This document shows positions 13,127 through 15,812 of a stretch of DNA of 64,000 bases, piece after piece. The DNA comes from Burkholderiales bacterium (GTDB lineage Bacteria > Pseudomonadota > Gammaproteobacteria > Burkholderiales > UBA11063), in contig JAIEPY010000039.1 in the NCBI GenBank assembly GCA_019748155.1, forward strand, positions 1 through 64,000, read 5' to 3'. The position numbers and the translations under genes are program-made. Every line of letters starts with the position of its first letter. Position 1 is the stretch's first letter. Below the pieces are notes generated by a model. It searched no databases. It was given only the letters and a program-made list of their open reading frames with translations, and had not been told where the DNA came from.

Positions 13127-13933
13127 TTACTTCATAAAATCAGGAATAGCTGGCATATTAGGCGAAATAGTAAGCACCTCATAACCATCAGGAGTAACTA
13201 GAATAGTATGCTCAAACTGTGCAGATAAGCTACGATCCTTAGTTAGTGCCGTCCAGCCATTGCTCGAAAATCTAACGGTACGCTTACCTTGATTAATCAT
13301 TGGCTCAATCGTAAAGATCATACCTGACTGCAGTTGCGGACCTGTCTTGGCTTTGCCATAGTGAAGCACCTGTGGATCTTCGTGAAAACCCTCGCCAATT
13401 CCATGACCGCAAAATTCCTGAACTACGCTATAAGCATTTTTCTCTGCATGAGTTTGAATTGCATGTCCAATATCGCCAAGAAAATTACCGGGTTTAACTT
13501 GCTTAATTCCTAACCACATACATTCATAAGTAACCTGTACCAGACGTTTTGCCTGTGGAGTAACTTTATCGCCAACTAAATATGTGCGCGAGGTATCGCC
13601 GTGAAAACCATTTTTATACACGGTAATATCCAGATTAACAATATCGCCATTTTTTAATGGTTTGTCGTTAGGTATCCCATGGCAAATTTCTGCATTCACC
13701 GAAGTGCAGATTGAGTTTGGATAGGCTGGCCCTTTGGGGTTGGGTTGGTAATTTAGTGGTGACGGGTACGCGCTTTGCACATTAACAATATAGTTATGGC
13801 AAAGCTTATCCAGTTCAAGTGTAGTTATACCAGGCTTTACATATGGCTCAATATAATCAAGCACTTCTGCTGCTAGTTTACATGATATTCGCATTAAATC
13901 AATCTGAGCTTGAGTTTTTATAATTATTGACAT
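13127..13933 (-). CDS. map: Methionine aminopeptidase type I
   Basis: SICTSVNAEICHGIPNDKPLKNGDIVNLDITVY, QEFCGHGIGEGFHEDPQVLHYG, MIFTIEPMIN. Confidence 0.96.
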   Translation of the reverse strand: MSIIIKTQAQIDLMRISCKLAAEVLDYIEPYVKPGITTLELDKLCHNYIVNVQSAYPSPLNYQPNPKGPAYPNSICTSVNAEICHGIPNDKPLKNGDIVNLDITVYKNGFHGDTSRTYLVGDKVTPQAKRLVQVTYECMWLGIKQVKPGNFLGDIGHAIQTHAEKNAYSVVQEFCGHGIGEGFHEDPQVLHYGKAKTGPQLQSGMIFTIEPMINQGKRTVRFSSNGWTALTKDRSLSAQFEHTILVTPDGYEVLTISPNMPAIPDFMK

Positions 13934-13940
13934 ATTTTTC

Positions 13941-15146
13941 CTAATACTCCAAATTCATGGCAAGTTTAATTTGTTTTAGATTATCACTGGCGATGTCGCG
14001 TGCACGCAAGCAGCCATCGGTGATGATTCGTTTTACTAATGTTGGTTCATCCTGATAAGGTTTGGCATTTTCTATTAATTCATTTTGCTGTAAATTAATC
14101 GCATCAATTAATGGTGCTTTACAGTCCAAACAACCTATTCCCGCAGAAAGACAGCCAAGCTCCGCCCACGACTTTACTTCATCATTACTATAAATTTGAT
14201 GAAGTGTCCATACCGGGCATGACTCAGGATTTCCGCGATCTGTTTTTCGGATGCGTGCTGGATCGGTAGTCATTGAGCGAATTTTGCTACTTACTACTTC
14301 AGGCGCATCACGTAAATTAATGGTGTTATTTGCCTGATATGACATTTGATGCCCGTCTAATCCGAGTATTTTTATTGGTGGACTAGGCATTAGTTGTGGC
14401 TCATTCAGAAATACTTTACCTTTGTTTTCCAAAAATGCAAATAGCCTCTCGCGATCTCCATGAGACAGGTTTAGTGCATCATGGAGCATGAAGCGCGCTC
14501 GTTCTAAAGCGTTATCATCACCTTCTTGTTGATATTTGAGAAGTAAGCTTTCATAAAGCTCAGCTTTTTTATGCCCAAGTTTCTTTATTGATTCTTGAGC
14601 TTTGTTTTCAAAGCCATCCTCACGCCCAAAAAGATGGTTAAACCTTCTGGCAATTTCTCGGGCTAATTCTATATTAGCTATTTGCTCTTCTTGTGCTAGA
14701 ACGTGACGAACATTATACATTAGAATATCAGAACTTTGAACTAAAGGCGCACCTAAAAAACCATATGTACTTGAGTCCGTATGCTCTAGCTCCTCGATAA
14801 GGTCTTTATAGCTTGGTACACGTTCCAGCCAACTTAGTGGTGTAATTGCACCTAATAATGCTGTTAGCTCATATTGCTCCGGTACTTTTGACTGAATGAA
14901 AATCGTGGCTTGTGAAGGATCTATCCCTGCCGCCAGCCAATTTATAACCATGTCATTGACGTACTCAGGTATATTCTCAGTATTATTAAAGTTTTGGATT
15001 AAACTATGAACATCTGCAACCATAAATAAACAATCATATTCATATTGAATTTTTTTCCAAGATTGTAATGCACCAAAATAATGCCCAAGATGAAGTGAAC
15101 TATTGGGACGCATTGCAGCGAGTAAGTTTTTGGAGTGTATATTCAT
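13941..15146 (-). CDS. trpS: Tryptophanyl-tRNA synthetase, long betaproteobacterial form with altered GEDQ and KMSKS motifs
   Basis: HLGHYFGALQSW, STYGFLGAPLVQSSDIL, IGCLDCKAPLIDAI; typical insertion before the KMSKS region; signatures read QEEQ and QMSYQ. Confidence 0.8.
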   Translation of the reverse strand: MNIHSKNLLAAMRPNSSLHLGHYFGALQSWKKIQYEYDCLFMVADVHSLIQNFNNTENIPEYVNDMVINWLAAGIDPSQATIFIQSKVPEQYELTALLGAITPLSWLERVPSYKDLIEELEHTDSSTYGFLGAPLVQSSDILMYNVRHVLAQEEQIANIELAREIARRFNHLFGREDGFENKAQESIKKLGHKKAELYESLLLKYQQEGDDNALERARFMLHDALNLSHGDRERLFAFLENKGKVFLNEPQLMPSPPIKILGLDGHQMSYQANNTINLRDAPEVVSSKIRSMTTDPARIRKTDRGNPESCPVWTLHQIYSNDEVKSWAELGCLSAGIGCLDCKAPLIDAINLQQNELIENAKPYQDEPTLVKRIITDGCLRARDIASDNLKQIKLAMNLEY

Positions 15147-15152
15147 TTGAGT

Positions 15153-15812
15153 TTAGCGCAATAGAGTAAAAATGCCACCAACTATCAGACTATAAAGTGG
15201 TTGCATAATATAGTTTAGACCGCCAAGCAATAATAATGCAATCAGAATCCACATTCCATAACGTTCTGTTTGTGCGTATTGTTCTGCCTGTTTTGCTGGC
15301 AGCAATGAAAATAGAACTCTTCCTCCGTCTAAAGGGAGAATTGGTAACAAATTCAGAATTAACAAACTAACGTTAATGCTGACCCCTGCTTGTGCCATAA
15401 GACTTAACGGAATTCCAAAATAGCTGTCAAAATACATGGCGGCTTTAAGTAACAGTCCCCAAATTAGTGCCATCGCTAGATTTGAGAGTGGTCCAGCGAG
15501 CGCTATCCAGAGTAAATCCTTTTTAGGGCTTTTAAGCTTAGCAAAGTTTATTGGCACTGGTTTTGCCCAGCCAAAAATAAATCCAGCTCCACCTGACATT
15601 GCACCCAGAATGATGCTGATTAACGGAAATACCACGGTACCAAATGGATCGATATGGTGCAGCGGATTTAATGATAAACGTCCAAGTAATTTTGCGGTAT
15701 TATCACCATATTTCTGTGCAACAAAGGCATGTGCTGCTTCATGAAGTGTTATTGCAAAAATTAGCGGTATAATGTATACCGCTACAGTTTGAACTATAGA
15801 TAAGTTATTCAT
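15153..15812 (-). CDS. Site-2 protease family (M50) membrane metalloprotease
   Basis: ITLHEAAHAFVAQKYGD (HExxH), NLLPILPLDGGRVL. Confidence 0.92.
   Translation of the reverse strand: MNNLSIVQTVAVYIIPLIFAITLHEAAHAFVAQKYGDNTAKLLGRLSLNPLHHIDPFGTVVFPLISIILGAMSGGAGFIFGWAKPVPINFAKLKSPKKDLLWIALAGPLSNLAMALIWGLLLKAAMYFDSYFGIPLSLMAQAGVSINVSLLILNLLPILPLDGGRVLFSLLPAKQAEQYAQTERYGMWILIALLLLGGLNYIMQPLYSLIVGGIFTLLR

Follow-up and report, generated by a model that had tools for sequence, protein, structure and literature searches.

Gene and Domain Organization at the Locus

The window, a stretch of 64,000 nucleotides from a genome that is 99.99% complete (G000) and whose genus is taken to be Aquella, a group of water bacteria, carries a gene for a long-form tryptophan–tRNA ligase (TrpRS) with an altered active site, set between genes for an M50 peptidase and a methionine aminopeptidase (Table 1). 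An earlier note on this DNA had recognized a long-form TrpRS along the full length of the frame, in its usual position beside the M50 protease, and had reported that the VGEDQ and KMSKS regions are altered, with both KMSKS lysines gone, and that HLGH and SSDIL are retained. Each of these points holds: the frame aligns end to end with long-form TrpRS, the positions given for the two motifs were exact, and SSDIL is present at residues 138-142.

Table 1. Features of the altered TrpRS gene and its immediate neighbors in the window
Feature	Position	Strand	Remark
Long-form TrpRS-like protein, altered active site, 401 aa	13941..15146	(-)	End-to-end match to long-form TrpRS
Catalytic (Rossmann) domain, residues 1-173	14628..15146	(-)	Constraint relaxed in altered clade
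HIGH-like HLGH, residues 19-22, kept	15081..15092	(-)	
AQEEQ replacing VGEDQ (GxDQ ATP/Trp motif), residues 151-155	14682..14696	(-)	
Helical insertion typical of long form, residues 174-252, conserved	14391..14627	(-)	
QMSYQ replacing KMSKS, residues 267-271	14334..14348	(-)	
Anticodon-binding (C-terminal) domain, residues 282-401, strongly conserved	13944..14303	(-)	
Cysteines C310, C332, C339, C342 (C-x21-C-x6-C-x2-C)	14121..14219	(-)	Match T. maritima TrpRS [4Fe-4S] ligands
M50 peptidase gene, 6-bp gap, directly upstream of trpS	15153..15812	(-)	Syntenic in relatives
map (methionine aminopeptidase), 7-bp gap, directly downstream of trpS	13127..13933	(-)	Syntenic

Active class I TrpRS are characterized by a HIGH-like motif, a GxDQ motif and a KMSKS loop with at least its first lysine; the window protein keeps the first of these as HLGH, and has QEEQ and QMSYQ in place of the other two. 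Alignment to the TrpRS of B. stearothermophilus (Bst; sequence checked against PDB 1i6k) and of T. maritima places changes at the equivalents of Bst G7, Y125, P142, V143, G144, D146, H150, K192, K195, and S196, with G7 to A, Y125 to A, P142 to L, and H150 to N being further active-site changes that the earlier note did not list, while the equivalents of D132, Q147, M193, S194, N199, and the HIGH-like residues are kept. The protein is orthologous to the Burkholderiales long-form TrpRS (NF008922/PRK12283), sharing its length, insertion, Fe-S cysteines, and M50 neighbor, but differs from it in GxDQ, KMSKS, and pocket residues. Against the NF008922 equivalog model for long-form tryptophan–tRNA ligase it scores 548 bits, below the curated cut-off of 572, and three intact Aquella orthologues score 641-686.

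The best match, in both sequence and fold, is the TrpRS of T. maritima, an active enzyme that, unlike the window protein, has KMSKS and lacks the insertion. The AlphaFold model of the window protein (pLDDT 83.5) has the TrpRS fold, matches the T. maritima structure 2g36 best, with a TM-score of 0.89 by target, and predicts a helical insertion at residues 179-239. In T. maritima TrpRS four cysteines of the anticodon domain bind a [4Fe-4S] cluster (PMC2954223), and the window protein has cysteines at the matching positions, with a first spacing of x21 rather than x22, within the C-x(21-24)-C-x6-C-x2-C pattern of [4Fe-4S] TrpRS. These four cysteines are invariant in altered and intact long forms alike, wherever the sequence covers them.

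A Second TrpRS in the Same Genome

The earlier note had proposed a search of the genome for another trpS, and one is present. A short TrpRS with HLGH, VGEDQ, and KMSKS all intact is encoded at G000:C110:12615-13592(-), flanked by a YlqF-like GTPase gene and a DNA-3-methyladenine glycosylase I-like gene (named by sequence inspection). The long and short forms are only ~35% identical over the catalytic domain. Apart from these two, the fold has one further relative in the genome, on contig C118, most likely TyrRS, as it matches the shared Trp/Tyr family strongly and trpS weakly. To judge from its motifs and distribution, the short TrpRS can carry tryptophan charging, and it provides the coexisting intact synthetase of the same specificity that is expected beside a non-charging paralogue. 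Its presence also rules out the altered protein as a sole TrpRS with a tolerated variant.

An exact-pattern search, which does not give an exhaustive copy number, found one tRNA-Trp gene in the window's genome and one in four of the six relatives searched, missing G022 and G004; in the five genomes with a match, no second tRNA-Trp that could belong to the long protein was found. A separate tRNA-Trp serving the second enzyme is thus not supported, as a single gene was found in each of the five.

Distribution of Long and Short Forms in Aquella

Across 22 congeners the two genes form a graded series, in which the absence of a short form has to be read against genome completeness. Three genomes (G004, G006, and G018; 94, 87, and 88% complete) have a long form with canonical motifs and no short form was found in them; six have an intact long form together with a short form (G003, partial at a contig end, G009, G010, G012, G015, and G021); ten, the window's among them, have an altered long form together with a short form (G000, G022, G002, G016, G019, G014, G008, G017, G020, and G007); and two have only the short form (G005, 98% complete, and G011, 59% complete). 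An intact short form accompanies the altered long form in every genome but one, G013, which is 68% complete and in which no short form was found. Neither form was found in G001 (58% complete). Both the altered long and the short gene lie on the closed chromosome of A. oligotrophica P08T (G016).

Sequencing error is ruled out, because AQEEQ and QMSYQ recur in the long protein of G022, which is 91% identical to that of the window, and four deeper relatives carry other residues that are equally non-canonical. The rpoB tree unites the window's clade, with G016, G002, G007, G020, and G005, in one group in which every member has an altered gene or has lost it, while G014 and G008 are sisters within an otherwise intact group; in the long-TrpRS tree G017 groups with intact members. 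Decay of the active site appears from these trees to have arisen at least three times, in the window's clade, in G014 with G008, and in G017, with the fast-evolving G008, G017, and G020 placed unsurely. All other Burkholderiales long forms inspected (15 and a further 18) keep KMSKS and G(E/D)DQ. Short forms are also found in three other Burkholderiales (G029, G049, and G054), yet their long-form motifs are intact. One of these, G054, has at least four TrpRS-like genes (contigs C41, C8, and C34).

Since TrpRS is an obligate dimer, and the insect SLIMP provides a precedent through its pairing with mitochondrial SerRS, co-occurrence of the altered long form with the short form might be taken to mean that the two make a heterodimer. 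Their low identity over the catalytic domain argues against this, as does the coexistence of intact long forms with the short form, and we regard such a partnership as the least probable of the explanations discussed here.

The series also includes outright loss. In G005 the long gene is cleanly absent, leaving ~100 bp between the M50 gene and map with the operon otherwise in place; in G020 the long gene is in advanced decay, with constraint relaxed throughout; and in G007 the altered trpS is split over two contigs (C135 and C15). Of the G007 gene, the first 122 codons run up to a contig end and the final 264 start inside another contig, beside unrelated ORFs; the cause is either a chimeric assembly or the insertion of an element into the gene.

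Selection on the Altered Protein

The reading frame is open in all six altered genomes of the window's clade. Residue differences between the long proteins of G000 and G022 amount to 9%, with synonymous sites near saturation; the pairwise dN/dS is 0.02-0.03, within the range seen for intact long forms and for the neighboring genes of the operon. Fitted to the six genomes, a codon model gives an omega of 0.016 and rejects omega = 1 (2dlnL = 1760); with dS saturated this value is rough, to be read as "very low" rather than as a number, and per-domain omegas, being unreliable, were not used. With no stops and an omega of ~0.02, the gene has neither the frame damage nor the neutral dN/dS of a pseudogene, and the protein is under purifying selection despite its altered active site. 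In the window's clade it is not an ordinary pseudogene.

A slower decay, following replacement of the long form by the short TrpRS, would account for the repeated loss of motifs, the relaxed catalytic constraint and the condition of the gene in G020, G007, and G005. It is nevertheless hard to reconcile with six deeply diverged genomes that keep the frame at full length, at an omega within the range of neighboring genes, or with a C-terminal domain that changes no faster than in intact enzymes. While the tight operon position could shield the frame, it could not shield amino-acid identity, and we therefore consider slow decay quite improbable.

A Shift of Constraint between Domains

Parsimony changes per site were counted on fixed trees and, as tree depths differ, each ratio was taken within one tree. 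For the catalytic (1-173), insertion (174-252), KMSKS (253-281), and anticodon (282-401) segments, the altered clade shows 0.99, 0.67, 1.76, and 0.79 changes per site, intact Aquella 0.71, 0.76, 0.86, and 1.29, and other Burkholderiales 0.60, 1.01, 0.76, and 0.89. The ratio of catalytic changes to those in the insertion and anticodon segments combined is 1.33 in the altered clade (95% CI 1.03-1.72), compared with 0.65 (0.50-0.85) in intact Aquella and 0.63 (0.45-0.86) in other Burkholderiales, and the altered to intact ratio of ratios is 2.04 (1.54-2.72). Intact lineages are needed for comparison because, tested within single genomes of the altered clade, catalytic and non-catalytic changes do not differ significantly (Fisher test, p = 0.24 to 0.86). 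In G014 and G017, which belong to separate lineages, catalytic changes are likewise more numerous and anticodon-domain changes stay at the intact level. Constraint has moved from the catalytic domain to the insertion and the anticodon/[4Fe-4S] domain.

Of the two possibilities left by the earlier note, an active enzyme with compensating changes and a TrpRS-like protein repurposed while a second TrpRS exists elsewhere, the latter is favored by the distribution across the genus together with the shift of constraint. The former is the main rival, in which the long protein would be a still active auxiliary TrpRS, tolerant of stress or of an inhibitor in the manner of Deinococcus TrpRS II or the indolmycin-resistant TrpRS1 of Streptomyces. 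Two active TrpRS in one bacterium have precedent (PMC9437257), and KMSKS variants occur in eukaryotic TrpRS, such as KMSAS in the human and KMSST in the P. falciparum enzyme, where the second lysine is gone and the first is kept (PMC3680381). Purifying selection is strong, and HLGH and the equivalents of D132 and Q147 are kept in most of the clade. In the window protein, however, both KMSKS lysines and the equivalents of Y125, G144, and D146 have changed together, the residues differ from relative to relative rather than forming a single fixed compensated set, the catalytic domain changes faster than the rest, which is the opposite of active enzymes, and the gene has been lost in G005. We consider an active auxiliary enzyme unlikely on this balance.

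The kept pocket residues could also suggest a regulatory subunit that senses free tryptophan by binding it and controls an enzyme or transporter as its partner, much as HisZ is an aaRS-like protein without adenylation: the equivalent of Bst D132 is kept in five of the six clade members and that of Q147 in all six. Against this, the Y125 equivalent is lost (A, S, or L), as is G7, the relaxed domain is the very one that holds the tryptophan pocket, and a sensor role would leave unexplained why the anticodon domain and the cysteines are conserved. Such a tryptophan sensor is very doubtful, a shade less so than the heterodimer.

A Proposed Retirement of the Long TrpRS from Catalysis

The explanation we prefer, with a probability of about 0.58, is that the long protein is a TrpRS retired from catalysis, which has been kept to bind tRNA-Trp, probably carries an Fe-S cluster, and acts as a regulator or in the manner of a chaperone. 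The long gene would be the ancestral, operon-embedded TrpRS of Aquella, and the short TrpRS, with its full set of motifs, would have taken over the charging of tRNA-Trp. Freed from charging, the long protein would have lost all or most tryptophan adenylation through changes in GxDQ, KMSKS, and the Trp/ATP pocket. Strong purifying selection on the full-length frame is now centered on its anticodon-binding domain, four [4Fe-4S] cysteines, and helical insertion; to judge from this conservation, a cluster may be assembled and carried, and tRNA-Trp may still be bound. Most likely the protein would bind tRNA-Trp without charging it and so regulate or chaperone that tRNA in a tRNA-dependent way, perhaps with sensitivity to redox state or iron. 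Some slow adenylation or substrate binding by the clade proteins is possible, because HLGH, the MS of KMSKS, and the equivalents of N199 and D132/Q147 are kept. As the gene is absent in G005 and in advanced decay in G020 and G007, the new role can be dispensed with in some genomes.

Because the non-catalytic half has been kept repeatedly and independently, a function that predates the loss of catalysis is suggested. We tentatively extend this to a broader proposal, less secure than the preferred explanation, that a resident Fe-S TrpRS was displaced by a cluster-free short TrpRS and, within a single genus, retired from catalysis on at least three occasions, with its anticodon/[4Fe-4S] domain under full selection. 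If true, a second, tRNA- and Fe-S-dependent function would already be present in the long-form TrpRS of Burkholderiales.

Relation to Known Synthetase-like Proteins

Non-charging aaRS-like proteins are established, among them HisZ, SLIMP, LeuRS-I, and LeuRS2 (PMC9437257). Haloarchaeal LeuRS2 and LeuRS-I of Sulfolobaceae are paralogues in which aminoacylation is lost or weak and tRNA binding is kept (PMC9437257); these are archaeal and concern leucine, whereas in Aquella the retired copy would be the long form in its ancestral place. The insect SerRS-like SLIMP and the HisRS-like HisZ are further aaRS folds without aminoacylation that are kept for another role, with other amino acids and partners. 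A second TrpRS in one bacterium is also known from Deinococcus (TrpRS II) and Streptomyces (TrpRS1), but those are active and the extra gene is auxiliary. For TrpRS a 2022 review lists only auxiliary, still-charging copies, and its table is without a TrpRS-like counterpart (PMC9437257).

Aquella offers a natural series of close relatives, running from one intact enzyme to two, then to a retired one and to loss, and including the cultivated A. oligotrophica P08T. Such a series allows features that selection maintains for charging to be told apart from those maintained for something else, and makes the case testable. It also draws attention to the anticodon/[4Fe-4S] domain, the role of which in TrpRS is still open (PMC2954223).

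Variation in the Surrounding Operon

Between G016 and G019, dS exceeds 1 for pmm, the M50 gene, and trpS, and is 0.1-0.3 for map, nadC, and the next genes; this sharp change at the trpS/map border suggests a recombination border between Aquella lineages. In the window nadC lies between map and an aminotransferase gene, and it is missing at that place in G005, G007, G013, and G020. In the G016 assembly rpoB (G016:C1:2734589-2738685) is split into two overlapping frames, as is the aminotransferase gene beside nadC (L062:11719-13088), and both splits are probably sequencing errors of that assembly.
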